DNA of 29,543 nt from a virus. Positions within the stretch are counted from its first letter, which is position 1. Each line of letters opens with the position of its first letter. Under the pieces are notes generated by a model, which saw nothing but the letters and a program-made list of their open reading frames with translations, was not told the origin of the DNA and ran no database searches. Shown here one piece after another: positions 2,219 to 24,450 of this stretch. Where the stretch lies: the IMG/VR virus record IMGVR_UViG_3300044655_003354, positions 1 through 29,543 of that record; one strand, 5' to 3'. The position numbers were made by a program, and so were the translations under genes.

Positions 2219-2311
2219 GGAGGGGTGGCCGAGTGGTCGAAGGCGATCGACTCGAAATCGATTAGGCGGCTAATACCTGCCTCGTGGGTTCAAATCCCAC
2301 CCTCTCCGCCA
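2219..2311 (+). tRNA. tRNA-Ser (anticodon CGA)
   Basis: This is a class II tRNA with a 7-base acceptor stem (GGAGGGG with CCTCTCC), anticodon stem ATCGA/TCGAT around loop CTCGAAA with anticodon CGA at 2253-2255, a long variable arm, a T arm with GGTTCAAATCC, and encoded CCA. It reads UCG codons. The gene is intact, and a phage integrase follows it on the same strand, so it is the likely integration target. Confidence 0.97.
2281..2311 (+). other. Probable attL core within the tRNA-Ser 3' end
   Basis: P4-type integrases commonly use the T-arm/3' part of a tRNA gene as attB and restore the tRNA on integration. Here the integrase begins about 170 bases past the intact tRNA end. The exact core cannot be set because attR is outside the window; a duplicate of part of this segment should lie at the far end of the prophage. 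Confidence 0.45.
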
Positions 2312-2342
2312 TTTGATAGTCTAGCCGGTTACAAAGGAGTCT

Positions 2343-2377
2343 AAAAACCCGCTCACGAAGCGGGTTTTTCTTCTTTT
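2343..2377 (+). terminator. Intrinsic terminator downstream of tRNA-Ser
   Basis: An 11-base stem AAAAACCCGCT/AGCGGGTTTTT (2343-2353 with 2359-2369) with a 5-base loop is followed by a T-rich run. It ends tRNA transcription and separates it from the integrase. Confidence 0.88.
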
Positions 2378-2426
2378 GACAGTCCAGCCCAATACATCTA
2401 CAATTAAGGGAAGCTAAGTACTAACC

Positions 2427-2468
2427 GTGCACATAACAGTACACAGGCATAAAAAGCGACCGTACACA
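2427..2468 (+). repeat. Three GTRCACA repeats upstream of the integrase
   Basis: GTGCACA (2427-2433), GTACACA (2439-2445) and GTACACA (2462-2468) are direct repeats in the leader between the tRNA terminator and the integrase start. Their place is that expected for arm-type integrase or excisionase sites, or an autoregulatory operator. This is pattern only, with no further support. Confidence 0.4.
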
Positions 2469-2483
2469 AAGGAGTGGCTGGCG

Positions 2484-3641
2484 ATGCTTACAGATACTGG
2501 GATTCGGAGGGCTAGGGCAAAAGAGAAGAGATATATGATTTCAGATGGCAATGGACTTTATATCGAGGTCATGCCTTCTGGGAAAAAATATTGGAGACTT
2601 CGATATTGGCTTAATAAAAAAGAATATAAAAAATCCCTGGGACCGTACCCTGAGATCTCGCTGAAAGAGGCCCGAGATCTTCGAGATCAAATAAAAAGAT
2701 CCATCGTACGCACTGGCCAGCCTGTTGTTGCTACGAATACCTTTGAAGCTGTTGCCAACGAATGGCTTGAGAAAAAGGTATTACCCATCAGAACGCCACG
2801 ACATATTGAAACCGTTACTTCGAGGTTGCGAAGGTTCGTTTTTCCTCATATCGGGCAAAAACCTATCGGTGACATAACTTCTCCTGATGTACTCGCGCTC
2901 CTGAGAGAAATGGAAGATAGAGAGATTTATGAAAGCGCGCATAGGGTAAGACAAATCATTGGCCAGGTTTTTCGTTATGGCATTGCCACTGGCGTAGCAG
3001 AGCGCGATATTACCGCAGATCTCAAAGGAGCTCTCATCCCTGTAAATTCCAATAGATACCCTACAATTACCGATCCTGTTGAAATAGGTGCCCTTATGCG
3101 AGCTATAGGGAGCCTTGACACTCTTGTAGTGCGTTGTGCTTTACTGTTACAAGCGTACACGTTTGTGAGGCCAGGGGAGCTGAGAAAGGCTGAATGGGCG
3201 GAATTTGACCTGAAAGGGCAGGAGTGGCGAATTCCCGCAGAAAAAATGAAGATGAAGAGGCTACACATCATTCCATTGTCATCTCAGGCTGTTAGCGTCT
3301 TAAAAGAAATTTATCCGGTTACAGGTTTGCGTTCGAAGTACGTTTTCCCCACTGTGAGAGATCCTAACCGGCCTATGAGCGATGCAACTGCAAACGCTGC
3401 CTTGCGACGACTTGGATACGAAAAAGAGAAATTCACAGGGCATGGATTCCGCAGTATGGCTTCCACGATTCTCAACGAGCACGGTTGGCCATCTGATGTT
3501 ATAGAAAGACAGTTAGCTCATATCGAACGGAATGCAGTTAGAGCAGCCTATAATCATGCGGAATATTTGGATCAGAGACGAGAAATGATGCAGTGGTGGG
3601 GGAATTGGTTGGAAGAGGTAAAGGGAACAAATAAACATTAG
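2484..3641 (+). CDS. int: Tyrosine-type integrase, P4 family
   Basis: This protein carries out site-specific integration and excision of the prophage. The 385-residue form starts at ATG 2484, chosen because AAAGGAG lies 9 bases upstream and the protein then opens MLTDTGIRRARAKEK, the usual start of P4-type integrases; a GTG at 2427 would add 19 atypical residues. The N-terminal arm-binding domain (DGNGLYIEV, KSLGPYPEISLKEAR) is followed by a core-binding domain and a catalytic domain with Arg234, His320, Arg323, His346 and Tyr356. It lies next to tRNA-Ser and points into the prophage, typical for this family. No stop or frame damage is visible. Confidence 0.95.
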   Translation: MLTDTGIRRARAKEKRYMISDGNGLYIEVMPSGKKYWRLRYWLNKKEYKKSLGPYPEISLKEARDLRDQIKRSIVRTGQPVVATNTFEAVANEWLEKKVLPIRTPRHIETVTSRLRRFVFPHIGQKPIGDITSPDVLALLREMEDREIYESAHRVRQIIGQVFRYGIATGVAERDITADLKGALIPVNSNRYPTITDPVEIGALMRAIGSLDTLVVRCALLLQAYTFVRPGELRKAEWAEFDLKGQEWRIPAEKMKMKRLHIIPLSSQAVSVLKEIYPVTGLRSKYVFPTVRDPNRPMSDATANAALRRLGYEKEKFTGHGFRSMASTILNEHGWPSDVIERQLAHIERNAVRAAYNHAEYLDQRREMMQWWGNWLEEVKGTNKH

Positions 3642-3670: not shown

Positions 3671-4861
3671 CTATTTTTCTATAAACGATTTCATTTTAAT
3701 TAAGAGAGTCTCAAGTGAAAGCCCCTTTAAATAATAGAAAAAGATAACTATTACCATAGTAGTTAAAAAAAATAGTGTGACAAAGAAAATGTTTAACAGA
3801 AGGTCTATGCGCTCGCATCTTTTATTTAATTTTTCATACATCTTATAGTAATCTTTCTTGATTATATCTGGGAATTTTCCTTTTGCTTTTTTCTGGTAGC
3901 TGATCTCACTTTTTATTGCATTCAAACTATCCCTTTGGTTCCTCAAAACAAAAAACATAGAAAGGGAAAAAATAACTATACTTAGAAGCAACAAAAAATT
4001 AGTTAAGCTCCATCCTTTTACTCGTTCAAATTTTAAAGCAGCCAGTGCAGAAGCTAATGGCAAGGCAAGAATTCGACCTGATATTTGGGCAATGAGGTCA
4101 TTAATTTTTAAGAAATAATCTCTTTTTTGTCCTTCGATGTCATCTAGGGTTTTTTCGATAGAAAAACTACTCATAAACGTTTCGTAATCACCATTTACTT
4201 TATGGTATAAATTATCACAGTTTTCTAACAAAAATTTAAGACGAACCGCCTCTTCTTTTAGTTCAACTAGGTGGAATATGTTGTTTCGAATTATTGCCCT
4301 TTTTTGTTCTTTATGCGTGCTGTCATCAAAGAATTCTTTTAAACGATTTAAAGAGCGACATCTCTTAAGATCATCAATACTATATGTCAAAGGGATTTCA
4401 ACTTTCCCATTTTTAAAAAAAATGATCTTCTTTAATGGATTCCCTATTTCATGATCTGCTATGTTGCAAAGAAAAGATATGAAATTTACTACATCGAAAT
4501 ATTTTTGGACATTTTCTGGTGGAGATGTTTTGCCATTATCGCAATCATATAGATAGTCTAAATCAGCGATGTAAAAAATGTCAGGAATATGTATTTTAGT
4601 GCAAGCATTTTCTGTTAAGTCCTTAAGTTCAGTGGCAAAGTAGGCTAGAGGAGATGCAGGAAGATAAAAACAAACATTATTTTGTGAAGTTTCCGCAATA
4701 TCTAAAAGGCCAACTCCTTCTAGCTCCTTAGATATACCCTCACATTGGGATGGGTCAGAGATAGTACCTTTCACACGTCTTTCTGATACAAACTCATGAG
4801 AGGAAAGCGCACGGAAAGCTTTGACAGCTGTTTGCAGCTTTTTAGCATGATTTACGTCCAT
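3671..4861 (-). CDS. Membrane protein of unknown function with two C-terminal TM segments
   Basis: I do not recognise this 396-residue protein. The N-terminal ~250 residues are soluble and mixed, perhaps a winged-helix-like start (KAFRALSSHEFVSERRVKG). Hydrophobic segments lie near residues 286-306 and 353-378, with a basic, coiled-coil-prone stretch between them (about 308-350) that would form a loop on one side of the membrane. GGAGG precedes the ATG. It is the last gene of the leftward block and starts 21 bases after the NA37-like gene, so the two are probably co-expressed. A large cytosolic sensor part with a two-TM hairpin is a layout common in anti-phage effectors, but here that is inference only. 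The region is AT-rich compared with the phage structural genes. Confidence 0.75.
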   Translation of the reverse strand: MDVNHAKKLQTAVKAFRALSSHEFVSERRVKGTISDPSQCEGISKELEGVGLLDIAETSQNNVCFYLPASPLAYFATELKDLTENACTKIHIPDIFYIADLDYLYDCDNGKTSPPENVQKYFDVVNFISFLCNIADHEIGNPLKKIIFFKNGKVEIPLTYSIDDLKRCRSLNRLKEFFDDSTHKEQKRAIIRNNIFHLVELKEEAVRLKFLLENCDNLYHKVNGDYETFMSSFSIEKTLDDIEGQKRDYFLKINDLIAQISGRILALPLASALAALKFERVKGWSLTNFLLLLSIVIFSLSMFFVLRNQRDSLNAIKSEISYQKKAKGKFPDIIKKDYYKMYEKLNKRCERIDLLLNIFFVTLFFLTTMVIVIFFYYLKGLSLETLLIKMKSFIEK

Positions 4862-4882
4862 TGAGCGATCCTCCTTATAAGT

Positions 4883-5905
4883 TTAATTTCCTCGTATAAA
4901 TCTTTCTATTTTCTCTATTTCTGTTTGGGGAATATTTTCTATGGTAATAGAATGTGCAATTTCATCATAAATTATTGTATCATTAATAGCACTTTGCTCA
5001 AATTGTAATTTTACCCCTGTCATAGTTACTTTTAAACGTTTGAGGGTTTCGAATGTTATCTTATGGGGTTTAAATTCATCTGTTATATTATATGTTTCGT
5101 TGTTATTTATATATGAAATAAACTCCCCGCTATCTTCTCCAAAAATACGGTTTGATAAATCTTGTAAAATTACTGGTTGCTTATTTCTATCTTTTTCAAA
5201 AAGATACCGATAAAGGTCATCTCTTAAACCGGTTTTTTCTTCTTCTGTCATATTCCTTTCTTGGCTAAAATCTGTTACAGCTTTTAATAAGTTTTCGGTA
5301 CAGCGTTTAGAGCTTGTATAAGCAGAACACCTTAATGCGCTACGGAAATAATTCGTAGCATCATCGTTATTTCTGTATTTAACAAAAGAAAGGTATGAGT
5401 TTTCACTATGTTCTTGCCATTTAACCAAGTCGATCCTGGCAACTTCATTTAAATGCTCTAAATCTAATGTGATATGCTGATTTAATTCAAGATCATCATT
5501 TATTCCTACACTTGCTTTGTCCTTTAACATAGCAATCATAATATAATCACGATCGCTATTTTGATATTTTATAAATAAAGCATAACCTCCTGTTGATGCT
5601 GGGGCTTGTTCCATAAATGTTTTTATTTCATGAGTTATATTTTTTGAAAATTGGACAAAGGGAATGTCCCCGGTAGAAAGCTGACTAAAATAATCTTCAA
5701 CAAGATTAGGAGTTCCACTATTTTGATCATTTTCAAAAATGCCATACCCTTTATTTGATTTGGTGTTGTATATTTGTCTTAAATCCTCTACTAGTTGTTC
5801 TAAATTTTCTTCAATCTCGTTCTCTTTTTCCCTATAATTTATTTCGGCTGTGCTAGTGTATTGTCCCTTTATAATTTGATGTACAATAGCGTTTGATATT
5901 TGCAT
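4883..5905 (-). CDS. NA37/NdpA (YejK)-like nucleoid-associated protein
   Basis: The 340-residue protein matches the 37-kDa nucleoid-associated family in its central part: a GGYALFIKY strand, a YIMIAMLKDKASVGINDDLELN segment, HLDLEHLNEVARIDLVKW, then YLSFVKYRNND and YFRSALRC. Family members such as E. coli YejK bind DNA; their role is poorly defined. A strong AAAGGAGG sits upstream of the ATG. On a prophage beside a two-TM protein it is more likely accessory cargo than a housekeeping gene. It could bind incoming phage DNA or nucleoprotein, but this is inference. Family assignment is by pattern recall, not a search. Confidence 0.75.
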   Translation of the reverse strand: MQISNAIVHQIIKGQYTSTAEINYREKENEIEENLEQLVEDLRQIYNTKSNKGYGIFENDQNSGTPNLVEDYFSQLSTGDIPFVQFSKNITHEIKTFMEQAPASTGGYALFIKYQNSDRDYIMIAMLKDKASVGINDDLELNQHITLDLEHLNEVARIDLVKWQEHSENSYLSFVKYRNNDDATNYFRSALRCSAYTSSKRCTENLLKAVTDFSQERNMTEEEKTGLRDDLYRYLFEKDRNKQPVILQDLSNRIFGEDSGEFISYINNNETYNITDEFKPHKITFETLKRLKVTMTGVKLQFEQSAINDTIIYDEIAHSITIENIPQTEIEKIERFIRGN

Positions 5906-5974
5906 AAGTTTATCCTCCTTTAATCCTTTTCTGTATAGTTATAACTCGTGCTTCTCATATAGATAAATCATCTC

Positions 5975-6238
5975 TTAAGTGTCCGATGTAGTGGAGGAAC
6001 TCGTAGTCTGGGCGGTATGCTCTTGGCTTAAAACGGCAATCTCCTCCTTGTGATTATTGATTTCTTGAGAACTCGTTTCCCACTTCGTTGCGAAAACCAA
6101 GACAAACAAAATACAAATACCAACCGTTACCGCAGTTGTTTTATTGCGTAAAGGGGGTTTTTTTATCATTGGAAGCATAGTAAATTTTAGGAGTAAAAGG
6201 TATTCCTCAATTTCCTCTACTGCCGATATTCTTCTCAT
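5975..6238 (-). CDS. Small single-TM protein, unknown
   Basis: The 87-residue protein has a soluble N-terminal part, a basic patch (KKPPLRNK), one hydrophobic segment around residues 36-51 (VTVGICILFVLVFATKW) and a polar, Ser/Thr-rich tail. Its ATG overlaps the stop of the nuclease-like gene (ATGA), which suggests translational coupling and a shared task. The basic patch before the TM favours an N-in orientation. No family recognised. Confidence 0.65.
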   Translation of the reverse strand: MRRISAVEEIEEYLLLLKFTMLPMIKKPPLRNKTTAVTVGICILFVLVFATKWETSSQEINNHKEEIAVLSQEHTAQTTSSSTTSDT

Positions 6239-7061
6239 ATTCCGTCATAAATTTGGTTATCAACCTCTCTTTGGTGATCAACCTCTCTTGTTACTTCAAT
6301 ATATTTATCGAGACTCAAGATAAAGGGGATTTTCCCATCATTACTTACGCCCATAACATTGGTAAACATGGAATCAAATCTACCACTTTGAGATGCATTA
6401 TTGCCCTTAAGGTTTATAAAATCCTCAACATACTTTTTAAAAGCCTCCCTATCTATTCCTTTTTGAAGAATAGATTCAGGAGGTAGTGATTTGCCTCCGT
6501 TTTTAAGTGATTCATATCGAATGACAGATTGAAAAGAGTTATAAGATATTGCTTCTTCTTTGAGTGCACTTATTTCCTCTATAGCTGTTTGTCTTCTAGT
6601 TCGTAAAATATCAAAAGCGTCTTTAAGAGGAATTGCATCAATTGCTATTTGAGATATTTTTTCTTGCAAAGTACTTTCTTTAGGAGCGTCTGGCTCAATT
6701 TTCGGATACCAGTAATTTTGAGCACATATGATAGCTCCATCATGACAAAATTCCCCATAAATAAAAAAATGTGCTTTTGCTTCTTCACTATGCTTTGAAA
6801 AAAAGCTTTCCCCTTTATTTCCTAATTGAGGAAGTAACTCTCCATTTTCAAAATAAACGTCTTCTCCCTTAAATTTTTTGTTCTCAGAATCGATGTCTTT
6901 TTTAGTCCTTTTAAATTCTATAAGTAAAAAATTCCCTTCAAAATTGAGGATGGCATCTCCAGCTTCTTCTGGATTGCCATCAAGAGGGAATATGCTTATA
7001 AGCCCGCGTTCCAACATATGTAAAAAAATTTATATTCAACCGTTTTTTCCCACCAAATCAT
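6235..7061 (-). CDS. PD-(D/E)XK nuclease-like protein, gene broken by a one-base frame slip in a T7 tract
   Basis: The main frame from 7017 gives 260 residues beginning MLERGLISIF, with no ribosome binding site and a stop codon four codons upstream. Near its start are GDAILNFEGN and LLIEFKR, the Asp and Glu-x-Lys pattern of PD-(D/E)XK nucleases. The missing first helix is present in another frame: ATG 7061, behind a GGGGGG run, encodes MIWWEKTVEYKFF and then enters a run of seven T (complement of 7022-7028). One extra T would continue it directly into LHMLERGLISIF. So this is one gene of about 275 residues that is mutated, miscalled, or expressed by -1 slippage. It overlaps the small TM gene by 4 bases. 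Upstream ATGs at 7076 and 7085 are other possible starts. Confidence 0.7.
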
Positions 7062-7114
7062 ATTATTGCCCCCCATCTTTTTCATTCGCCAAATGGCTCT
7101 ATTGCTTAAATCCC

Positions 7115-8032
7115 CTAAATTATTTTCAAAAAATCAGCCTCAGACATTATCTCTATTGGAAAACCTTTCGCTCTCAGGTCTTCTGCTTTCTTCGTCTTGG
7201 CACTTCTTTCCCCATCAGTGAATAGGGAATAATCCTGAATGCCCATCACAAGATAATTCGTTTGCATCGTAACGCCTTGTTGAGGGGTCCCACCGGCTTT
7301 TTCAACCAGGCAAAAAGCTTCCTCTCTAGTCATAGATACCAATGTTCCTGTAAAAGTAATCTTTTTCTCGTAAAAAGGGTGAAAAGGATCTTTGCCACAT
7401 TCTTCGGGAGAAGGATGTCGCGGTTTTGCTCTTGCAGGAAAATGAATTCCTGAAGGTGTGTACTCCCCGTTACAGATTCCTCCGATGCGGAATCTCAGCT
7501 CTTTTTTTAGTTTTTTTAAATCGTTAACATTATGCTCCCTGCACGCTGCCAAAATGATTTCAGCTGAACACCTTGCATCTTCTTCCGCGTCGTGATGTAT
7601 AAGAGGCAATCCTAGATGACCTGCTACTACAGGCAGGGAGAATGAAGACAAAAAAGGCCATGCTCCTTTGGAAACAGCGACAGAGCAAACAATGTCACAA
7701 TCTGGAATATCTAAACTGTAAAGGGGAAGGGTGTTTCGAATAACGCTAATGTCGAAAGAGGCGTTATGCGCAACGACGGTAGCGTTTGTAAGTAGAGGCT
7801 TAACTTCTTCCCATATTTGGTTGAATTCAGGCTTGTTTTTTACATTGCGTTTTTGAATACCATGAATTCTAACGTTGAAAGGATTGAAGTAATAGTAATC
7901 TTTAGGTGGCTTTATGAGCCACGATTTTGTTTCTGTAATTTCGCCATTTTCAACAATAGCTATTCCAAGAGCACATGGGCTGCATCTTTTCTCATTCGCT
8001 GTTTCAAAATCTATAGCTACAAAGTTGAGTAT
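7115..8032 (-). CDS. DnaQ-family 3'-5' exonuclease with C-terminal BRCT domain; ATA start codon
   Basis: The 305-residue protein has exonuclease motifs AIDFETAN (Asp8, Glu10), AHNASFD (Asp94) and HDAEEDA (His147, Asp152), then a linker and a BRCT domain (about 218-305: KKITFTGTL, EKAGGTPQQGVT, TNYLVMG). It resembles stand-alone epsilon-like exonucleases that act on DNA or RNA ends. The full domain has no ATG, GTG or TTG start: the first is a TTG at 7651, deep inside the exonuclease fold. A very strong GGGAGGAGG lies 8 bases before an in-frame ATA at 8032, giving ILNFVAIDFET, so ATA in place of ATG is the likely start. An in-frame stop lies directly before it. The gene sits in the lysogenic leftward block. 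Confidence 0.85.
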   Translation of the reverse strand: MLNFVAIDFETANEKRCSPCALGIAIVENGEITETKSWLIKPPKDYYYFNPFNVRIHGIQKRNVKNKPEFNQIWEEVKPLLTNATVVAHNASFDISVIRNTLPLYSLDIPDCDIVCSVAVSKGAWPFLSSFSLPVVAGHLGLPLIHHDAEEDARCSAEIILAACREHNVNDLKKLKKELRFRIGGICNGEYTPSGIHFPARAKPRHPSPEECGKDPFHPFYEKKITFTGTLVSMTREEAFCLVEKAGGTPQQGVTMQTNYLVMGIQDYSLFTDGERSAKTKKAEDLRAKGFPIEIMSEADFLKII

Positions 8033-8071
8033 TTAAATAACCTCCTCCCTGCATATTTCCAAATATAAGTT

Positions 8072-8941
8072 TTAAGAAAAAAGCGTTAGCTGACATTCTT
8101 TACGTAACAACTTACCACTGAAATCTCTCCTGGATTTCAGTGGTTTTTGTAACTTCTTTTGGGGGCCATTGATCAAGAAGTGGACGAACTCGTCTTGAGT
8201 CATGCTGTGAGATGTGTTGTTTTCTGTAAAATGCCATGAAAACTTTACATGTCCTGGGAAACGTTTCCCATCTTGAATACTTGCAGGGGACGCAGCATCG
8301 ATTTGAATCAAAGGAGAGACACTTGAGCCCGCATAAGAGTTTTTATAAATAATGTCTCCCTTGGCAAAGCCAAAGTTAGAGCCTTGGGTCCAGGCAAGAA
8401 AGGAGACGGTGTTTTTGTTGCGCTCCATCAGCTGTATATCTAAAGCGGCATTAAAACAGTCGGGAACATGCATATACCAGTCTGAACAAAATTTGCATCT
8501 GATAGTTTGCAAGATCCTTCCTGAGCGAATATCGTTATCATTTGTGCTTGACGCCTTAAGCAATGTCTTAAGTGTTGACAAGGAACCCAGCGTCGTTTCT
8601 TGGCACATGTTAATGCCATGTTTTAATTCGCTTTTTAAAGTGGTGTAGAGCTCGTTTTTTGCTCTTTGTAGACTATTGCTCAAGCGGAACTTTATTTTTG
8701 TCCCCCTGTTATATTTTTTATCAAAAGAAATAAAATTCTTATCAAGTAGTTCTTCAATACCTTTATTTGGCAACTCCCATGTTTGCCAGTCGAGTTTTTC
8801 CATGAGCTTTTTGTATTTCGAAGGGTCTTCTTTTTGCAGTTTTTTGTTTATCTCTTCTGCATGTTGATGTCCGATAATGTCGATGTGCAAAATAAAAGCA
8901 AGCATCGTTCTTGCATCGGGTGAAAGAGTGTCTATGTTCAT
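8072..8941 (-). CDS. Unknown protein with winged-helix-like N-terminus and a Cys-containing centre
   Basis: The 289-residue protein is not recognised. The first ~90 residues are helical and basic (EEINKKLQKEDPSKYKKLM, NKGIEELLDKNFISFDKKY), like a winged helix that senses or binds nucleic acid. The centre has RCKFCSDWYMHVPDC, a possible metal site. The C-terminal half has strands and ends basic (KPLKSRRDFSGKLLRKE). I use ATG 8941, about 10 bases after GGTGGG, rather than GTG 8956. It starts 19 bases after the SWIM gene, so both are probably translated from one message. The pairing suggests a joint function, but no role can be stated. Confidence 0.7.
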   Translation of the reverse strand: MNIDTLSPDARTMLAFILHIDIIGHQHAEEINKKLQKEDPSKYKKLMEKLDWQTWELPNKGIEELLDKNFISFDKKYNRGTKIKFRLSNSLQRAKNELYTTLKSELKHGINMCQETTLGSLSTLKTLLKASSTNDNDIRSGRILQTIRCKFCSDWYMHVPDCFNAALDIQLMERNKNTVSFLAWTQGSNFGFAKGDIIYKNSYAGSSVSPLIQIDAASPASIQDGKRFPGHVKFSWHFTENNTSHSMTQDEFVHFLINGPQKKLQKPLKSRRDFSGKLLRKECQLTLFS

Positions 8942-8960
8942 TTTGAATATTCCCACCTAC

Positions 8961-9779
8961 CTAGTCTGAAAGTTCGTAAATATAACTTCCCCAATAGAGC
9001 GCATCATCTGATGTACAGTCGAAATCATCTTGAAACAAATTCTTTTTCAAATGGGTTCGTACTTTACCTCGGATGCCACGAGCCTCTTCTTTGAATTTCA
9101 CTATGCAGTAGTCTTTTTTAAGTTCATCAACAGATTCTGGACAAAGTGAATAGACAAGTTTGATTGTTTCTTTCTTTGTTCGTGGACATTTTAAATTATT
9201 TTCTTTTAAGACTTGGCGTAAATCTCTGATGTGGACTAAGACAAGAAGTCTTTCTGGTGAATCCACTTCTTGTAAGATTTCTTTAGAAAGCAACTCTCTA
9301 TGACTAGATTCATCACGGCAATAAATCCATGAGCCAGTGTCTAGACCATATATCCAACGCGTCAAAAGTGCGTAAAGTTCTTTTTGGGAATCTTCTTGAA
9401 GGGAGTCAATTTTGTGCTTTTTATCTTCATTGAAAGTTATAACAACGTTGGAAATTTTACCGAGATCTATAATTCCGAGCTCATGGGCAAGACGATAAAT
9501 ATGTTTACAAGGGATAGTGTGTTTACGTTTGAAGGCTCGTTTAAAGTCTGTGCAAGTGCAGGATGTAAGAGTAGTGATATATGGAGTAGAGCTACTTCCT
9601 TTAATTGTGCAAGAACCTTTTACCGCATCTAGATTATCTACCTTAGCGATAAGTTGAGCTCGCTCCATACGCCTTTGTTGGGGTGGCTCGTCATGTATTT
9701 TATCTCCCCAGTGCATTCGCCAAAGACAATGGAGACAAATATCCCCACTATATTCAGCACCGCACCTTTCGCATTTCAT
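8961..9779 (-). CDS. SWIM zinc-finger protein with N-terminal zinc ribbon
   Basis: The 272-residue protein begins with Cys3-x2-Cys6 and Cys15-x2-Cys18 (CERCGAEY, CLHC), a likely zinc ribbon. A SWIM domain follows: SCTCTDF ... IPCKHIYRLAHELG (Cys74, Cys76, Cys91, His93; CxCxnCxH). SWIM domains bind DNA or protein, often beside helicases or transposases. A later stretch LKENNLKCPRTKKETIKLVYS is SAP-like. ATG 9779 is chosen because AAGGAG lies 8 bases upstream; GTG 9788 overlaps that site. It is the first accessory gene after the repressor, 44 bases downstream, and so is likely co-transcribed with it in the lysogen. Confidence 0.8.
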   Translation of the reverse strand: MKCERCGAEYSGDICLHCLWRMHWGDKIHDEPPQQRRMERAQLIAKVDNLDAVKGSCTIKGSSSTPYITTLTSCTCTDFKRAFKRKHTIPCKHIYRLAHELGIIDLGKISNVVITFNEDKKHKIDSLQEDSQKELYALLTRWIYGLDTGSWIYCRDESSHRELLSKEILQEVDSPERLLVLVHIRDLRQVLKENNLKCPRTKKETIKLVYSLCPESVDELKKDYCIVKFKEEARGIRGKVRTHLKKNLFQDDFDCTSDDALYWGSYIYELSD

Positions 9780-9823
9780 GCTGGTCACTCCTTAAGTAGT
9801 AAAACGTGTATTTTAGATAAAGA

Positions 9824-10540
9824 TCAAATTCCTTTCCTTGGAACCGCCGTTAGAAGTGTCACTTTCCCGACGATATAAAAAAGTCCCATGTTTATTTCTT
9901 CTTTAGTAAAGCTTCTGGGCTTGTATTGGGGGGCAGCAGAACGGATTTCAACAGAACCATCTTTTGTGTCGAAATATACCCATTTTATTGCCCATTCTTT
10001 TTGCAAGCCAAAACAAACTAAGGCAACATCACCGTCATATACTTCTTCTGCGGGATTCACAACGACTGTGCTTCTGTCAGGGATTCCAGCGCCTTCCATA
10101 CTATCTCCTTCAACCAAAACTGCAAACGGCTTTTTATCAGCATCTATAGAGATATTTCCTACGACATCAATGGGTAGAAGTATCGTTTTTTCAGCGCTAG
10201 CATAAATCTCAATCATGCCCCCATTACCTCGTCCGGCACATGCAATAGCTGTTGGATCAAGAACAGGGACTTCTATCCATTTGTCAAAGTATTGGGCTGA
10301 TTCTTTTCGTACATTAGAGGTGATGTCAAGTGGGGTAGATCCATCTGTTTCCCCCATAAGGTAGGCGACAGTGGTGCCAAAAACTTGAGCCAACGTTTTC
10401 AAAACATTAGCGTCGGGAGTTCTAAGCCCTTTTTCCCAATTAATAATAGAGCTTCTTGAATATCCGGATTTCTCCGCAACTTCTTGCTGAGTCATCCCCT
10501 TTCGCTCTCTACATTCTTTGAGCTTTTCCTCAACAGACAT
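9824..10540 (-). CDS. CI/LexA-like phage repressor (HTH_3 + S24 peptidase)
   Basis: The 238-residue protein has an N-terminal XRE helix-turn-helix (about 6-62; MTQQEVAEKSGYSRSSIINWEKG) and a C-terminal S24 autoprotease with VEGDSMEG (catalytic Ser147), Lys186 in EWAIKW and a probable Ala102-Gly103 cleavage site in ACAGRGNGG. It should hold lytic genes off by binding the adjacent operator region and be self-cleaved after RecA activation during DNA damage. AGAGGTGATGAG precedes ATG 10540; a start at 10585 would add 15 residues without support. It is divergent from the Cro-like gene and heads the leftward accessory block. Confidence 0.93.
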   Translation of the reverse strand: MSVEEKLKECRERKGMTQQEVAEKSGYSRSSIINWEKGLRTPDANVLKTLAQVFGTTVAYLMGETDGSTPLDITSNVRKESAQYFDKWIEVPVLDPTAIACAGRGNGGMIEIYASAEKTILLPIDVVGNISIDADKKPFAVLVEGDSMEGAGIPDRSTVVVNPAEEVYDGDVALVCFGLQKEWAIKWVYFDTKDGSVEIRSAAPQYKPRSFTKEEINMGLFYIVGKVTLLTAVPRKGI

Positions 10541-10686
10541 CTCATCACCTCTATTTAATTGTCTACGAATGTGGTCATAAATCAAGAGTAAGAAAGTAAT
10601 CTTTTCGTGTTGACATATGTAACATTTAGATATATAGTTCTTTTAAAGAGTACGATTGACTACATAGCAAGAGTGGGGGTGAAGTG
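10541..10686. promoter_or_regulatory. Divergent operator region between repressor and Cro-like genes
   Basis: This 146-base gap holds the rightward early promoter and must hold the repressor's own promoter, which I could not pick out clearly. Candidate operator signals are a dyad around ACATATGT (10614-10621), overlapping the -35 side of the rightward promoter, and three AAGAGT copies (10584-10589, 10646-10651, 10669-10674). Location rather than motif strength supports the call. Confidence 0.65.
10610..10638 (+). promoter_or_regulatory. Rightward early promoter (PR-like)
   Basis: Perfect TTGACA (10610-10615), a 17-base spacer and TATAGT (10633-10638, five of six consensus bases) lie about 50 bases upstream of the Cro-like start. 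The ACATATGT dyad overlaps its -35 end, so a bound repressor would block polymerase. Confidence 0.85.
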
Positions 10687-10935
10687 GTGAGTATAGGGGA
10701 AAACATCCGTTCTATTCGCGTTTTAAGGGAATTAACTCAAGAAAAACTAGCAGAAATGGCAAAACTTTCAAGGAGCTCAATTGTAAACTTTGAAACGGGC
10801 AAAAGGGCTCCTCGAGTAGATGATCTTGAAAGCATTGCAAAAGCTTTAGGAGTAGAAGTTTCTATCTTTTTTCAAGAAAACCCTACTCAGCCCCGGCGAG
10901 AGGAGACTCAGGCCGGGGAAACGGAGACTATCTAG
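10687..10935 (+). CDS. Cro-like XRE-family regulator
   Basis: The product is 82 residues, most of it one XRE helix-turn-helix (LTQEKLAEMAKLSRSSIVNFETGKRAPRVDDLESIAKALGV). It is the first rightward gene, opposite the repressor, as cro is in lambda-type switches. The start is GTG at 10687 (or the adjoining GTG at 10684), behind GGGGGTGA. Its C-terminal tail (QAGETETI) looks unnatural, and the next open frame appears to be its continuation after a missing base in a GGGG run (see next entry). If so, the intact protein would be about 140 residues. Confidence 0.85.
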   Translation: MSIGENIRSIRVLRELTQEKLAEMAKLSRSSIVNFETGKRAPRVDDLESIAKALGVEVSIFFQENPTQPRREETQAGETETI

Positions 10936-11105
10936 GAGAAGCCAGCAGGGTCGTAGAAATACTAAAAGAAGCTGCAAAAAGATACGACCCAGAGGGCGTG
11001 AAAGAAATCATGAGAGACATTGGCGACAACGGCAGGGCAGATGATCCAGATCTCAGAAATTTCTTTTCAGAGATTGCTAGAGCTGCAACAGAAGCACTGA
11101 TGTAA
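10936..11105 (+). pseudogene. Start-less open frame, probably the shifted C-terminal part of the Cro-like gene
   Basis: In the -1 frame relative to the Cro-like gene, 10830-11105 is open, and from about 10930 it reads like a real protein: YLGEASRVVEILKEAAK, then a helical acidic stretch ending FFSEIARAATEALM. No ATG, GTG or TTG occurs before a GTG at 10998 that has no usable ribosome binding site. An extra G in GGGG (10917-10920) would fuse REETQAG directly to GNGDYLGEASR. It may be a frameshift mutation, a base-call error or recoding. No conserved -1 slippery heptamer fits the Cro frame here. Confidence 0.55.
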
Positions 11106-11136
11106 CAGCGAGGCGCAAAGAAAGGAGGCTAACAAC

Positions 11137-11352
11137 GTGGAAGGAGATGTAACTATGCCCGAGTTCGGATTCTTGCGGTTGCCAGACGTACTTAAAATCA
11201 TTCCGGTCTCGCCATCCACTTGGTACAACGGGATTCGTGCCGGACGATTCCCCAAAGGAATAAAAATCACTGGAAATATAGTTGGTTGGAAAGTATCTGA
11301 CATAAAAAATCTTGTTCAGAAAATTGAAGAGGAGGCCGAAGCGAATGCTTGA
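11137..11352 (+). CDS. AlpA-like / excisionase-like small HTH regulator
   Basis: The 71-residue protein has the MerR/AlpA-type winged helix pattern: GFLRLPDVLKIIPVSPSTWYNGIRAGRFPKGIKITGNIVGWKVSDIKNLV. Such proteins act as transcription activators for integrase or as excisionases. Two starts are well supported: GTG 11137 after AAGGAGG (8 bases) and ATG 11155 after AAGGAG (8 bases); the domain is complete from either. It could direct the early switch or excision, but the integrase is 8 kb away. Confidence 0.8.
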   Translation: MEGDVTMPEFGFLRLPDVLKIIPVSPSTWYNGIRAGRFPKGIKITGNIVGWKVSDIKNLVQKIEEEAEANA

Positions 11353-11566
11353 AAAAATAGGGAAAAGTCTTTTAAAGATGTTGGCTAAAAACGGCGTGAT
11401 AAGCGGCCCATACTATTTCAAGGGAATATGGTTTGCAAAAAGAGAGGCTTCCAGTCTTCTCAGTGCCATTTGCGGAGCGGATGAACGGAAAAGGCTTAGC
11501 GCAAGATATAAAGATATATCAATCAGAGACGTTCAAAAGCTTTCAGCTTTCGTAGAAGAGGGTTAA
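11345..11566 (+). CDS. Small early protein, unknown
   Basis: The 73-residue protein starts at ATG 11345 after GAGGAGG, inside the end of the AlpA-like gene (8-base overlap). It is basic at the N-terminus (MLEKIGKSLLKMLAKNG) with a helical second half ending SIRDVQKLSAFVEEG. A start at 11312 would have no ribosome binding site. No family recognised; tight packing supports it being real. Confidence 0.6.
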   Translation: MLEKIGKSLLKMLAKNGVISGPYYFKGIWFAKREASSLLSAICGADERKRLSARYKDISIRDVQKLSAFVEEG

Positions 11567-11568
11567 CA

Positions 11569-11769
11569 ATGCATTGCGTTGTATGGCTTTCAAAGGCTCA
11601 AGCTTTAAAAGAATTTGATGACGCTATTGAACTGCAACGTGTTAGGACTGCACATGCAGAGGTGTTACATCAAAAATATAACGATAGTCTAAGCAGAAAA
11701 AAGATTAGAGATGAGATTGCGCAGCTGGCAAATCTCCAAAAACAAAGAGAAAGAATGTGTCTGGCATGA
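11569..11769 (+). CDS. Small helical early protein, unknown
   Basis: The 66-residue protein is mostly predicted helix with a coiled-coil-like charge pattern (EIAQLANLQKQRERM). It begins two bases after the previous stop, and the next gene overlaps its end by 4 bases. No domain recognised. Confidence 0.55.
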   Translation: MHCVVWLSKAQALKEFDDAIELQRVRTAHAEVLHQKYNDSLSRKKIRDEIAQLANLQKQRERMCLA

Positions 11770-11939
11770 AAAGATCTGTCCAAAATGCAGTTGTTAGTTT
11801 GTTGAACTATAGAGGGCAAAAATTGCGAGGCGTTGTCTTTCGACGAACTGAAAAGAATGCCCATGCAAGAAAAGCAATAGTGGCGGCTTGTAAAGAGATA
11901 AAAAGAGAGTCTCTGATTTTCGAATCAGAGACCGTTTAA
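11766..11939 (+). CDS. Small basic early protein, unknown
   Basis: The 57-residue basic protein (MKRSVQNAVVSLLNYRGQKLRGVVFRRTEKN) starts at ATG 11766 overlapping the preceding stop (ATGA). Its last codons form one arm of a perfect hairpin (11909-11932), so the 3' end has a dual role as RNA structure. Function not recognised; nucleic-acid binding is plausible from charge alone. Confidence 0.5.
   Translation: MKRSVQNAVVSLLNYRGQKLRGVVFRRTEKNAHARKAIVAACKEIKRESLIFESETV
11909..11932 (+). other. Perfect hairpin with TTCG loop at a gene end
   Basis: GTCTCTGATT (11909-11918) pairs fully with AATCAGAGAC (11923-11932) around TTCG, the most stable RNA tetraloop. No T run follows. It spans codons 48-56 of the small basic gene and may shield the upstream RNA from 3' exonucleases. 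Confidence 0.7.
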
Positions 11940-11947
11940 AAACTTAT

Positions 11948-11980
11948 AGGCTAGGAGCTGCAACTCCTAGCCTCATTTTA
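11948..11980 (+). terminator. Terminator-like hairpin in the early operon
   Basis: A perfect 10-base stem AGGCTAGGAG/CTCCTAGCCT (11948-11957 with 11964-11973) with a 6-base loop is followed by CATTTTA, a weak T tract. It may be a leaky terminator or an attenuation point between two early blocks. Confidence 0.6.
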
Positions 11981-12004
11981 GCATATTGAGGAGGATGCGG
12001 CGTA

Positions 12005-12307
12005 ATGACTGACTTTGATATCGCTGGAATGTGTACGGCTAGAGCAAAGCTCACTTCCATGGCGAAAGTGCCCCAACCGAACAAATCAAGTGGCATTACT
12101 CGAAAAATAGTAACGGAGCTTTATTGTGAAATTAGAGATGCCCGCATAGCGGGATATAGCTGGCAAAAAATAGCAGATGCAATAACCTCAACGATGAATA
12201 TAAAACTTACCGGGAGTGGTATTTCCTACGTTTTTCGCACTCTTGACCATCAATATGAGCAAGAGACCGGGGTAGCGGCGCTACCTGTAGGTCGGAATGG
12301 CAGGTAA
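12005..12307 (+). CDS. Unknown early protein with HTH-like segment
   Basis: The 100-residue protein contains EIRDARIAGYSWQKIADAI followed by GSGISYVFRTL, which fits a resolvase-like helix-turn-helix that recognises DNA. GAGGAGG lies about 10 bases before the ATG. It starts the second early block after the hairpin pair. No named family; a small regulator is the simplest reading. Confidence 0.6.
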   Translation: MTDFDIAGMCTARAKLTSMAKVPQPNKSSGITRKIVTELYCEIRDARIAGYSWQKIADAITSTMNIKLTGSGISYVFRTLDHQYEQETGVAALPVGRNGR

Positions 12308-12311
12308 TCAG

Positions 12312-12671
12312 ATGAAAAAAATTTATATAGCACATCCACTGCGAGGAGAAACAGCCGATATCGATGAAATTTGGAAAAATAGTGTAGCTATAGATACTAT
12401 ATGCCGCAACGTATCAGCCATAGTGGGAGCCAAAGACACACTACTTCTTTCTCCCATTCATGCATTTAGTTTTATGCCTGTTTTTGGCGACCAAAAAGAT
12501 GTTTTTGAACAATGCCGAAACATGCTATCTCTTGCCGATGAGGTTTGGGTATTCGGCGATTGGGCGAGCTCTGAAGGTTGCAAGATGGAAATAGAGTATG
12601 CCAATAAGCTGAACATCCCTGTGGTCTTTCACCACAACAAAATCAAGGAACTAGACGAATGCCTAGCGTAG
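12312..12671 (+). CDS. DUF4406 / nucleoside deoxyribosyltransferase-like protein
   Basis: The 119-residue protein opens MKKIYIAHPLRGE and has ADEVWVFGDWASSEGCKMEIEYANKLNIPVVF. The early strand-Pro turn and the SxGCxxEIEYA motif, with its key Glu, are typical of the small DUF4406/deoxyribosyltransferase-like group often found in phages. It may act on nucleotides or nucleotide-derived ligands. ATG 12312 is preferred because family members begin with this strand; ATG 12297 adds five residues. It lies just upstream of dUTPase, which supports a nucleotide theme. Confidence 0.75.
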   Translation: MKKIYIAHPLRGETADIDEIWKNSVAIDTICRNVSAIVGAKDTLLLSPIHAFSFMPVFGDQKDVFEQCRNMLSLADEVWVFGDWASSEGCKMEIEYANKLNIPVVFHHNKIKELDECLA

Positions 12672-12877
12672 AGTATGAGATTTTTGTCGCTGTAGGAAAG
12701 TATGTAGATAAAAGCGGTCGTGAAAGAACAAAGCAACAGCGTGTAGGGGAAATATTCTTACATTCGGATGGGAATAGATATATTCGGCTAGATCCGTTTT
12801 TCAATTTTGCAGCATGCGAGCGCAAACATGGTAACGACAAACTTTTTTTGAGATGTGTAAAGCCTAAGGAGGTTTAG
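12659..12877 (+). CDS. Small protein, unknown
   Basis: The 72-residue protein starts within the end of the DUF4406 gene and stops two bases before dUTPase. It has a beta-rich pattern (VEYEIFVAVGKYVD, GEIFLHSDGNRYIRLD). No motif recognised. Gene packing and the dUTPase ribosome binding site at its end support it being translated. Confidence 0.55.
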   Translation: MPSVEYEIFVAVGKYVDKSGRERTKQQRVGEIFLHSDGNRYIRLDPFFNFAACERKHGNDKLFLRCVKPKEV

Positions 12878-12879
12878 TC

Positions 12880-13311
12880 ATGGATAATTTACGAATTGTT
12901 GTCGAAGACGATCTTTTTATACCTAAAAGAAAAAATATTGGCGATGCCGGAGCAGACATTAGAAGTGCTATAGATGTTGTTATTTATCCAGGTGAAGCTT
13001 GCAACATTCCAGCTGGTTTTAAGGTAGCTATTCCATATCAATATGGCGGCTTTATTTTTCCAAGAAGCGGATTGGCCTATAAGCATGGAATTCACCTCTG
13101 TAACGGGGTAGGCGTAATTGATCATCAGTATCGAGGCGAAGTAATGCTTCCTCTTCGAAATGATGGTACAAAGCCCTTTACCATTCAGCGTGGAGACAGA
13201 CTAGCCCAGATGGTGATTCTCAAAGTGGAATTACCAGGCTTTGTAGTTGTAGATGTACTGGATGAAACCGAGCGTGGAGAGGGCGGTTTTGGCAGTACAG
13301 GGGTGAAATAG
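12880..13311 (+). CDS. dut: Deoxyuridine 5'-triphosphate nucleotidohydrolase (dUTPase)
   Basis: Hydrolyses dUTP to dUMP and pyrophosphate, keeping uracil out of phage DNA. The 143-residue trimeric type has all five motifs: GDAGADIRS, PRSGLAYKHGI, NGVGVIDHQYRGEV with the catalytic Asp, GDRLAQMVI and RGEGGFGSTG. TAAGGAGG lies 7 bases before the ATG. In phages dUTPases can also act as signalling switches, but nothing in this sequence shows that. Confidence 0.95.
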   Translation: MDNLRIVVEDDLFIPKRKNIGDAGADIRSAIDVVIYPGEACNIPAGFKVAIPYQYGGFIFPRSGLAYKHGIHLCNGVGVIDHQYRGEVMLPLRNDGTKPFTIQRGDRLAQMVILKVELPGFVVVDVLDETERGEGGFGSTGVK

Positions 13312-13312
13312 C

Positions 13313-14200
13313 ATGTCTGCGAATGACATTAAAGTTGTAGATTGCAGGGCATTTCCTTTTGCGAGGGTTGATATTCCTGTGATTATAGATTCAGATCTGT
13401 CAACATATGAAAAAATGGTGTATGTAGCTCTTTGTACGTTTGCGTCAAGAGCTAATTCGTGCTTCCCTTCTGTAAAAACCCTTGCAAAGGCGGCTTCTTG
13501 TTCTGCACGGCAAGTTAGAAGATGCCTTGAGGGACTTGAAAAAAGAGGACTTATACGTATTCATGAAAGAATGACAGAGAAGGGGCAATCATCGAATATT
13601 TACGATATTTTGGGGGCTCAGGGGATGACAGAGAGTCAGCCCCCCATGACTGGTAGTCATACCCCCTCTGACAGTGAGTCACCCAGAACTATATTTAGTG
13701 AACTAGATACTACTTCTCTTTCAGAGAAGGAAGAACCCCCCTCTGACGAGGCCCTTCCTTCACAGGAAAATGCAGAATTCGTTGATATTGATGAGGTTCC
13801 TCAGGTGATGCGCCCAACTGTGGAATATTTCTTGCTCAAAACGGGTAGAAAGGGAATTACGCCAGGAGAACTTTCCGCAGTCAAAACCCTCGAAAAGATT
13901 CATGTTCCCGCACGGGTGAACCAAGAGATTGGGAAGGCTGTATCGCGATACGAGAAAAAGAAACGTCCGCTGCACACTCTCACTCTCGAATACATTTATG
14001 AAAGCTTGAAATACCAGACTTCGGGGCGGAATGTCAAATCTAAAACGCAAAGGGCTTTGACACCTGACGACCCATACGAAAAACAGCGAGCGTCTGACTT
14101 GAAAGAATGGGAATCAAGTCAACAGCAGGCTTTGCTTGAAAAATACGGAGGTGATCTCGATGACAAGCCTAGAAGCTTTGTTGGCTCAGTACCCTCGTAG
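13313..14200 (+). CDS. HTH replication-initiator-like protein
   Basis: The 295-residue protein has an N-terminal winged helix of the HTH_36 kind (LSTYEKMVYVALCTFASRANSCFPSVKTLAKAASCSARQVRRCL...GLIRI), an acidic Ser/Pro-rich linker (about 105-160) and a helical C-terminal part. This layout and its place directly upstream of a DnaC-like loader match phage replication initiators. It should bind the phage origin, which in such genes often lies inside the linker region; I see no clear iterons there. It overlaps the next gene by 41 bases. Confidence 0.8.
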   Translation: MSANDIKVVDCRAFPFARVDIPVIIDSDLSTYEKMVYVALCTFASRANSCFPSVKTLAKAASCSARQVRRCLEGLEKRGLIRIHERMTEKGQSSNIYDILGAQGMTESQPPMTGSHTPSDSESPRTIFSELDTTSLSEKEEPPSDEALPSQENAEFVDIDEVPQVMRPTVEYFLLKTGRKGITPGELSAVKTLEKIHVPARVNQEIGKAVSRYEKKKRPLHTLTLEYIYESLKYQTSGRNVKSKTQRALTPDDPYEKQRASDLKEWESSQQQALLEKYGGDLDDKPRSFVGSVPS

Positions 14201-15065
14201 AAAAGCTAAAGATGAGAAAAAAGCGCTTGAATATTTACAGCGATATTTTAAAGATCCGTCGCTCACGATAGAAGCCTTAGATAATTCTGCTTCAGACATT
14301 CTTTACGTACAAGAACAAGATCGTTATTGCACTCATTGCCCTGGATATGGCGGGTGTAAATACCGCGGAATGAGGTATGTAATGCGTTTTGAAGATTTAT
14401 TTGGTCGGCAAGTTTTATCAATAAAAGTAGGTGACTGCCTAGATCGCAAAAAATACGAGAAGCAAAAGAAAACTGAACAGTTGGTAAAAACGAGCAAAAT
14501 TCCAGAAGCCATGAAACGCTGTACTTTCGATACATTTAAGACCATGGATGATCCTATCATCAGAACTGCAAAGGGTTTGGCCATGGCGAGTGTGGAAGAT
14601 GGTTTCTCTCTCGTTTTAGGTGGTGGTACGGGTGTGGGAAAAACCCATCTGGCCATTGCTATAGTTCAGTCTCTTGCTTCACGTGGGAAAAGCGCAGTAT
14701 TCGTGCCGGTGGTTGATTTGCTTGATGAAATCCGTTCGGGCTTTGAGGATGGAACAGCAAATAAAATCCAACAGGCCGTAAAAGATGCCGATTGTATAGC
14801 CATTGATGATTTAGGGGCACAGAGAAAGGATAAAAGTTGGGTCGATGAGCAACTTTTTTCTCTCATAGACGCACGGTACAGGTCGGGGAAACAGACAGTG
14901 ATAACAACAAATGCGTGCTCTATGTCACAGCTTAAAGAAATGTTGGGTGAGCACGGTACGAGAATAGTTTCTCGGTTGACAGAGATGTCGCACCCCTTGT
15001 TTATCAAGGCGCGGGATTTTAGAACACGCAAGAATGTGCAGAAGAAACTGCCTATAGGAAGGTAA
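14160..15065 (+). CDS. dnaC: DnaC/IstB-like helicase loader ATPase
   Basis: The 301-residue AAA+ ATPase should load the host replicative helicase at the phage origin. Walker A is GGTGVGKTH (about residues 154-163), Walker B is CIAIDDLGA, and the C-terminus keeps the sensor pattern TRIVSRLTEM. A Cys cluster (CTHCPGYGGC at about 57-66, plus Cys93) in the N-terminal domain could hold a metal. Start ATG 14160 follows GGAGGTGAT; the longer frame from 14136 lacks a site. It overlaps the initiator gene, supporting coupled translation. No phage helicase is visible, so host DnaB is the expected partner. Confidence 0.9.
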   Translation: MTSLEALLAQYPRRKAKDEKKALEYLQRYFKDPSLTIEALDNSASDILYVQEQDRYCTHCPGYGGCKYRGMRYVMRFEDLFGRQVLSIKVGDCLDRKKYEKQKKTEQLVKTSKIPEAMKRCTFDTFKTMDDPIIRTAKGLAMASVEDGFSLVLGGGTGVGKTHLAIAIVQSLASRGKSAVFVPVVDLLDEIRSGFEDGTANKIQQAVKDADCIAIDDLGAQRKDKSWVDEQLFSLIDARYRSGKQTVITTNACSMSQLKEMLGEHGTRIVSRLTEMSHPLFIKARDFRTRKNVQKKLPIGR

Positions 15066-15081
15066 CGCAGGAGGTGTAGAA

Positions 15082-15417
15082 ATGCCTAATTCAGAAAATG
15101 TAGGGGTAAAAATATATAGAAGGAAACCTATTGAACCCATTGAAATTGCAGCTATTCAGTGGACTGGTAAAAACCTAAAAAAAGTTATTGATTTCATAGG
15201 ACTTCATGAATCTGTGAAAGACATACCATGGAAAAACTATGAAAGGATAGTTAAAAGGCATGGACTAAAGGTTTTCGCCCCACAATGGATAGAAATTGTC
15301 CCCATAGGTTATTTTATTATTAAAGATATTAGGGGGGAGCTTACACTTCAACACCCAATAGTTTTGGATGAGGAGTATGAGGAGGTTAAAAATGACTCAA
15401 AAACAGAAGGTATCTAA
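15082..15417 (+). CDS. Phage protein of unknown function (IQWTG / IIKDIRGE type)
   Basis: The 111-residue protein contains IEIAAIQWTGKNLKKVIDFIG and GYFIIKDIRGELTLQHP, a pattern seen in many small phage proteins without a known role. AGGAGGTG precedes the ATG. The C-terminal end overlaps the next small gene by 26 bases. Confidence 0.75.
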   Translation: MPNSENVGVKIYRRKPIEPIEIAAIQWTGKNLKKVIDFIGLHESVKDIPWKNYERIVKRHGLKVFAPQWIEIVPIGYFIIKDIRGELTLQHPIVLDEEYEEVKNDSKTEGI

Positions 15418-15577
15418 CCGTTTAAATAATGCGATAAAAAAATGGATGTTAGCTTGTATTCATGAGCGCATGGCAAAAATGGAGGTAGACGCTATGTCAA
15501 GAACATTTGATGAAATCACTGGCGTACAGGAAAGGCAGATAAAATTATCGGTGGTAAAAAATGAAAACCGAAGCTGA
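15392..15577 (+). CDS. Small basic helical protein, unknown
   Basis: The 61-residue protein starts at ATG 15392, 6 bases after GAGGAGG, inside the previous gene. It is helical and basic (MTQKQKVSNRLNNAIKKW). It overlaps the YopX gene by 17 bases. No family recognised. Confidence 0.5.
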   Translation: MTQKQKVSNRLNNAIKKWMLACIHERMAKMEVDAMSRTFDEITGVQERQIKLSVVKNENRS

Positions 15578-16064
15578 AAAGGTAATGATGTATAAATACT
15601 ATAGAGGTAAAGCAGTTTGTTCAGTTGATGGTATTTGTGATAAAGGAGATTGGGTCTATGGGGCGTTAGTGCCAGGAGACTCCCCTACTGCTAATCCTTA
15701 TATAACGGGTGGGATAGAAGAGGCAGGAGATGATTTTATTATCCCGTCATTCTGGGTTCCTGTTGATTTAAAAACCGTAGGAGAATTTACAGGAATTTAT
15801 GATGGCGACAATAAAAAAATTTATACGGGAGACATTGTAAAATGGGACGATGCAACTCATGGGGAATATTGGAGGGTTGCAGAAGTAATACGCCAACCTG
15901 GGCATTTTACATTTAGAACAATTCCATCATTATGTATAAATTGTTTAAAAGAAGAGGCGTGTGATTTTCAAATGGGATGTTTCGCGTATTGCCCCGATAC
16001 AAAAAAGTATGGGAATGTCCTCAAAGTCATCGGCAATATATACGAAACTCCGTATATCAAGTAA
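15561..16064 (+). CDS. YopX family protein
   Basis: The 167-residue protein has the YopX layout: YYRGKAVC, KGDWVYGALV, then VGEFTGIYDGDNKKIYTGDIVKWDD and a C-terminal KVIGNIYETP. YopX proteins are common in phages of low-GC hosts and have no proven function. A Cys-containing insert (CINCLKEEAC ... CFAYC) lies between the two core parts and could bind metal. A start at 15585 is also possible. Confidence 0.85.
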   Translation: MKTEAEKVMMYKYYRGKAVCSVDGICDKGDWVYGALVPGDSPTANPYITGGIEEAGDDFIIPSFWVPVDLKTVGEFTGIYDGDNKKIYTGDIVKWDDATHGEYWRVAEVIRQPGHFTFRTIPSLCINCLKEEACDFQMGCFAYCPDTKKYGNVLKVIGNIYETPYIK

Positions 16065-16109
16065 ATGGTTTAAGCAACAGCAAGGGTAAGGAAGTAGAGG
16101 AGGATGACA

Positions 16110-16604
16110 ATGAATGAGATAGAGCGCTTATCAGCAATTATAGATTTACTTGTGACCTACCACCCATCAGGCGTAATGGTCTTATTGGGAGAGCGTCCTC
16201 CTCTTTCTGATGTCGAGTGGTTTGAGCTAGCGCAGTCTATTAAAAGCGAAGATGATATTGAGCGGGTAGATTCAAGTGTGAATACTGACGCTTTTTTCGG
16301 CCAAATAGCAGCTGGAGATGCCATTGTTCAATTCCTTGAGACATTAGGTACATGGGAAACGGTAGTCGAGGCGGCAAGATCATTCAGAAAAGTATTTCCT
16401 GCTGACTGGAATATGTTTATAGATCATGTCAGATACGTGGATAATCCTTTCTCTTCAAGGCTTTATAAAGAAAGTATGTTAGCACGTGTTGCAACAAAAT
16501 ATTCCGTTGATCCTAAAACAGTGACAAGAAGACGTAAGACGGTACCATTGGCAATAGCTCGTGAGGCGATAGGAGGCTTTCAGCTCGCGTTGTTTGGAGA
16601 ATAA
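16110..16604 (+). CDS. Possible late regulator with sigma-like HTH
   Basis: The 164-residue protein ends with SRLYKESMLARVATKYSVDPKTVTRRRKTVPLAIAREA, a helix-turn-helix resembling sigma region 4 or phage late activators. It is the last gene before the terminators and packaging module, the usual place for ArpU/RinA-like late activators. ATG 16110 is chosen since GAGGAGG is 6 bases away; 16104 is too close. No direct family match claimed. Confidence 0.6.
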   Translation: MNEIERLSAIIDLLVTYHPSGVMVLLGERPPLSDVEWFELAQSIKSEDDIERVDSSVNTDAFFGQIAAGDAIVQFLETLGTWETVVEAARSFRKVFPADWNMFIDHVRYVDNPFSSRLYKESMLARVATKYSVDPKTVTRRRKTVPLAIAREAIGGFQLALFGE

Positions 16605-16736: not shown

Positions 16737-16738
16737 TT

Positions 16739-24448: not shown

Positions 24449-24450
24449 TT

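Follow-up and report, generated by a model that had tools for sequence, protein, structure and literature searches.

A DS-1-related pair of an NA37-type nucleoid-associated protein and a membrane protein within a mosaic accessory block of a prophage

Do the seven same-strand genes that follow a prophage repressor form one anti-phage system, or is the functional unit smaller than the block? The stretch of viral DNA analysed here (an IMG/VR virus record of 29,543 nucleotides, referred to as the window) raises this question, as it carries seven minus-strand genes at 3671-9788 (named g1 to g7) downstream of an HTH and S24 repressor. An earlier note, made from the sequence alone, had taken the seven genes for an undescribed defence or exclusion cassette, possibly composed of two or three separate units. 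We confirmed the arrangement on which this proposal was built, with all seven genes on the minus strand behind the repressor and mostly small gaps between them. The domains guessed from the translations were also recovered with Pfam: NA37 in g2 (E 5e-68), RNase_T/DnaQ in g5 (E 5.8e-18) and a SWIM finger in g7 (E 6.5e-4, 19.6 bits, exactly at the cut-off). The features of the locus are as follows.

3671..4861, minus strand: g1, a 396-aa membrane protein, DS1_2-like, PHROG 5023 (NF053869, PHROG, AF2, hydropathy)
4883..5905, minus strand: g2, a 340-aa NA37/YejK nucleoid-associated protein, DS1_1-like (Pfam, NF053868, AF2)
5975..6238, minus strand: g3, an 87-aa protein with one hydrophobic segment (33-51), whose start overlaps the g4 stop
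6235..7017, minus strand: g4, a 260-aa PD-(D/E)XK-like protein (alignment with plasmid and prophage relatives, sister contig)
6681: recombination joint; above it, the window is near-identical to the sister prophage, and below it, the two sequences are unrelated
7115..8032, minus strand: g5, a 305-aa DnaQ-like 3'-5' exonuclease with BRCT (PRK06195, Pfam RNase_T)
8072..8956, minus strand: g6, a 294-aa protein with weak PHROG matches, a separate gene
8961..9788, minus strand: g7, a 275-aa protein whose N-terminal cysteines resemble a zinc ribbon and which has a SWIM finger (Pfam SWIM), a separate gene
9824-10585, minus strand: HTH and S24 repressor, its HTH half unlike that of the sister prophage, the remainder near-identical

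Counted from the repressor downwards, the spacings are 35 bp (to g7), 4 bp (g7-g6), 39 bp (g6-g5), 97 bp (g5-g4, counted to the g4 ATG at 7017), an overlap of 4 bp (g4/g3), 69 bp (g3-g2) and 21 bp (g2-g1). Promoter-like sites are at the level of shuffled sequence (19 found, 21.1 expected), so co-transcription of the seven genes with the repressor can be called plausible and nothing stronger. At the far end, g1 converges on the integrase (2427-3641), with 29 bp between them. A tRNA-Ser(CGA) immediately precedes the integrase (2219-3641 for both), with TadA-like and rubrerythrin-like genes of host type on its left, and this tRNA gene is likely the attachment site. A second tyrosine-recombinase-like ORF of 199 aa, separate from the integrase, lies on the plus strand at 17025-17624, between the early genes and the terminase region.

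An NA37-type protein and its membrane partner

In addition to its NA37 domain, g2 matches PHROG 3767 (E 9.5e-80), while g1 matches PHROG 5023 (E 1e-48), which has no known function. Both proteins also match NCBIfam models named after DS-1, an E. coli anti-phage system of 2026 (DefensePredictor, PMC13092281). The match of g2 to NF053868 (DS1_1) has an E-value of 9.6e-29 and 100.5 bits against an equivalog cut-off of 330, and that of g1 to NF053869 (DS1_2) has an E-value of 8.6e-21 and 74.5 bits against a cut-off of 315. DS1_2 was matched by 30 of the 30 aligned members of the g1 family, and no other NCBIfam model was matched at E <= 1e-5. The DefensePredictor paper gives a YejK nucleoid-associated domain among those newly validated in E. 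coli anti-phage defence (PMC13092281); that DS-1 is this YejK system follows from the names of the NCBIfam models. Judged by these scores, the g2-g1 pair is a distant, divergent relative of DS-1 that lies outside DS-1 as filed, and since the scores fall far below the equivalog cut-offs, its function may have diverged too. The pair can thus no longer be counted as part of an undescribed system, given that a distantly related one was reported in 2026. To our knowledge, no member of the g2-g1 subfamily has been put to an anti-phage test, and a literature search returned no paper describing g1. Current annotation of the E. coli prophages and plasmids that we examined calls the two genes 'nucleoid-associated protein' and 'hypothetical protein'; the cut-offs of the DS-1 models are too high to name the pairs there.

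Structures were predicted with AF2 from window and viral-contig sequences (pLDDT 86.7 for g1 and 82.8 for g2). The g2 model resembles YejK (PDB 9be2; Foldseek E 4.5e-22, TM 0.74), which is its only fold match at E <= 0.001, and the g1 model has no PDB match at that threshold. The g1 protein consists of an N-terminal alpha/beta and helical region followed by hydrophobic segments, of which, in family-wide hydropathy, two are strong (about 288-306 and 358-376) and one is weak and conserved (256-274). The two segments originally noticed in g1 are therefore real, as is the single one in g3, with the weaker conserved segment of g1 to be added. Between the two strong segments lies a loop rich in Lys and Arg, which would be cytoplasmic if g1 crosses the membrane a third time at the weak segment. 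Residues invariant in the g1 family include H183, Q186/K187 and N308/Q309 (window numbering). We could demonstrate no channel motif in g1, and family searches found no nuclease domain in g1 or g2.

A search of viral contigs with g1 alone gave nothing useful. We aligned four distant g1 relatives from plasmids and a phage (alignment A1), and a profile-guided scan of viral contigs found 31 further g1 loci, for a total of 35. In all 35, an NA37 gene lies directly upstream of g1; the two genes overlap in 29 of them and are otherwise 2 to 77 bases apart. This bears out the suggestion that the NA37 gene and the two-TM gene are a unit of their own. The control was a small sample of 30 bacterial-genome NA37 loci of about 4 kb each (NA37 genes were present in 28 of 399 and 1 of 284 whole genomes), and none of the 30 has a g1-like gene. 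Thus, the presence of g1 implies NA37, but not the converse, and g2-g1 is an obligate two-gene module. Pairwise distances of g1 and of NA37 co-vary strongly (r = 0.955 for 24 non-redundant loci, a value reached in 0 of 5000 permutations), a correlation to be expected from the common descent of two linked genes just as much as from physical contact between the partners. The A1 profile matched nothing in 683 whole genomes, which, with no positive control in that search, is weak evidence of rarity.

The pair is also mobile. It is found on plasmids and in lambdoid, Mu-like and other prophages, where its accessory site varies and the genes around it include those for Q antiterminators, DUF968/HNH proteins, repressors, holin/endolysin and tail proteins. 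Prophages in NZ_CP151030.1 and NZ_CP068394.1 are two E. coli examples. In a lambdoid E. coli case, the pair sits on the opposite strand, with Q on one side and the lysis genes on the other; in Mu-like E. coli prophages, it follows an HTH regulator and precedes the lysis genes (with one intervening gene in contig L159). DNA resembling one such pair is present in 35 of 5426 complete E. coli genomes, over at least 80% of its length in 14 of them. Hotspots for antiviral systems are established in P2-like phages and their satellites (PMC9122126).

Possible modes of action of the pair

That the g2-g1 pair is an exclusion module is plausible. Our full reading, to which we give a probability of about 0.5, is that it is a prophage-borne, two-gene superinfection-exclusion module related to DS-1, with g2 as sensor and g1 as membrane effector of a RexAB-like abortion, and that the other five genes of the block are independent of it, g4 being probably broken. 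The NA37/YejK-type g2 protein would bind DNA and serve as the infection sensor, while g1 would reside in the membrane as an effector that is silent in the lysogen. Incoming phage DNA, or its replication, would alter how g2 sits on DNA, and g2 would then act on g1 at the inner membrane, such that the infection would be aborted through membrane perturbation, as is thought for RexA/RexB. This proposal draws on the observed pairing, mobility, position and co-variation of the two genes and on their homology to the DS-1 models; expression in the lysogen, contact between g2 and g1, the trigger and the effect on the membrane are steps that we infer.

More tentatively, and at somewhat less than even odds, NA37-membrane pairs may constitute a large exclusion family of prophages and plasmids, whose design (a DNA-coating sensor and a membrane effector, in some cases located behind the repressor) would have converged with that of RexAB from an unrelated fold, with DS-1 as one divergent branch and most members unrecognised by annotation. 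As the pair is obligate and co-varies across prophages and plasmids, this whole family is directly testable for anti-phage function.

A DS-1-like module could also work by capture, in the manner reported for Kiwa: g1 would anchor the NA37 protein at the membrane, and NA37 would coat incoming DNA and block its replication and transcription, so that the cell survives. DNA binding is established for the NA37/YejK family, neither g1 nor g2 has a nuclease domain, and in Kiwa a membrane protein is coupled with a DNA-binding partner that leaves the DNA uncut (PMC12904381). On the other hand, the KwaA and KwaB models are not matched in sequence, and no Kiwa structure is among the fold matches of g1 and g2, a mismatch that excludes homology to Kiwa, but not its mode of action. 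We regard capture as the main rival, if a rather unlikely one.

It is more doubtful still that the pair serves the prophage itself, with NA37 organising or silencing prophage DNA or steering lysogeny, and with g1 as its membrane tether. NA37/YejK proteins are general nucleoid proteins, and RexA likewise biases the lambda switch (PMC11077077). However, the pairs are found on plasmids and at unrelated sites of unrelated prophages, and a validated defence system contains homologues of both proteins. Abortion of infection through the membrane remains our preferred reading. The proposal of a defence or exclusion role finds good support for the NA37-membrane pair, and not for the set of seven genes.

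The other five genes and the mosaic block

A sister prophage (IMGVR_UViG_3300038317_000322, contig L002 below) is 99.4% identical to the window over 6681-10288. In place of the C-terminal part of g4 together with g3, g2 and g1, it has the C-terminal portion of a D12-class adenine methyltransferase (Pfam 1.6e-8; PADLOC MTase_II 2.9e-124 and PD-Lambda-5_B 5e-78), to which the N-terminal half of g4 is fused in frame (L002 4932-5972). The GC fraction of 3671-6680 is 0.327, while all 3-kb stretches of 10684-29543 are higher (0.402-0.448). The joint inside g4 and the low GC content below it indicate that g1 to g3, together with the end of g4, can be exchanged as one segment. Beyond 10288, the sister has a different HTH half in its repressor (L002 1435-2193), and the C-terminal half is near-identical, a pattern that suggests an immunity switch by recombination.

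The g4 protein alone had no match in the initial family searches, but the PD-(D/E)XK-like pattern attributed to it becomes visible once its family is aligned. Common to its relatives from plasmids and prophages are a W(W/F)EKTVEY block at the N-terminus, P(L)xG..E..GD and (I/L)IEFK, with EKTVEY, GD and IEFK invariant, an arrangement of the type typical of PD-(D/E)XK enzymes. The family has no Pfam or PDB sequence match, and a g4 profile gave only chance matches in the PDB. Proteins of about 200-340 aa with the W(W/F)EKTVEY, GD and EFK motifs recur in prophages and conjugative plasmids (contigs L120-L125 and L163-L176) with no Pfam name; by its motifs, the family is a candidate nuclease. In the window copy, a run of T at about 7021-7027 has seven T where the sister prophage has eight, which shifts WWEKTVEY into another reading frame, with the internal ATG at 7017 left as the g4 start (7017-7085 region). 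One missing T thus removes the conserved block, and g4 is probably broken here, unless the difference is an assembly indel. A nuclease and small TM protein had been suggested as a unit, and this we rejected: among 20 prophage and plasmid contexts, nearly all have the g4 relative by itself, and at most 2 have a small TM-like ORF just downstream. Family and profile searches found no relatives of g3. The g3 gene is accessory and not a conserved partner of g4.

The g5 protein has both DnaQ-BRCT features, an RNase_T domain and a BRCT domain, the latter under the Pfam cut-off (E 0.015) but backed by a whole-length match to PRK06195 (E 8.3e-89). Its DnaQ part has a strong ribosome site but no ATG, GTG or TTG start; past the stop and the ribosome site GGAGGAGG, the first codon is ATA. 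An ATA occupies the expected place in the sister contig too (L002 about 4250-4902), and ATA is the probable start. DnaQ-BRCT is a common nuclease type and g5 a separate gene; its PADLOC matches to DEDDh and PDC-S48 reflect the shared exonuclease domain, and a defence-specific role was rejected.

The SWIM gene g7 and g6 had likewise been proposed as a unit. They occur together again only in the near-identical sister prophage, and the single outside relative of each is found without the other, so this unit was rejected as well. Pseudoalteromonas phage PY3 has a weak g6 relative by itself between its integrase and its repressor.

The DnaQ-BRCT gene, g6, g7, g4 and g3 are therefore separate accessory genes, not one system. 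Despite their shared strand and mostly small gaps, a single new defence system of all seven genes is hardly credible and was rejected, as recombination cuts the block inside g4, the sister retains the N-terminal half of g4 through g7 without g1 to g3, g2-g1 pairs, members of the g4 family and the g6 and g7 relatives are each found elsewhere without the rest, and g4 is frameshifted in the window. Recurrence across genomes, which the earlier note had proposed as a check, is seen for the pair and not for the whole cassette. As a caution, genes that follow a repressor on one strand may be a pile of unrelated accessory genes.

Comparison with known systems

The block touches on PD-lambda-5 through the D12-class methyltransferase piece that fills the same slot in the sister prophage. 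However, this is just the C-terminal part, fused to half of g4, and it is absent from the window. The closest known system is DS-1, which likewise has two proteins, one with an NA37/YejK domain and the other homologous to g1; the g2-g1 pair differs in being a divergent subfamily, far under both cut-offs, whose defence function is putative. Chromosomal YejK/NdpA is a nucleoid-associated protein with the fold and domain of g2, but the NA37 loci of bacterial genomes lack the g1 partner, whereas the phage form is paired. Kiwa also combines a membrane protein with a DNA binder lacking a nuclease (PMC12904381), but g1 and g2 have no PADLOC KwaA/KwaB match and no fold match, and homology was rejected.

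In design, the pair recalls RexAB of lambda and RexABpp of Pseudomonas putida, in which a DNA-binding sensor and a membrane effector lie downstream of the repressor, with other genes reported between repressor and pair in RexABpp (PMC12894663). The g2-g1 pair likewise joins a DNA binder to a membrane protein in that position, including the intervening genes. However, g2 has a YejK fold, whereas RexA has an RdgC-like fold (PMC11077077), and neither RexA nor RdgC is among the g2 fold matches listed; RexBpp has four predicted TM helices, and g1 two or three. Homology to RexAB was rejected for lack of a match in PADLOC or fold comparisons, and because the folds of g2 and RexA differ, the parallel is one of analogy, not membership. 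The pair would be a second fold that links a nucleoid-type DNA binder to a membrane protein, in parallel with the long-unsolved trigger of RexAB.
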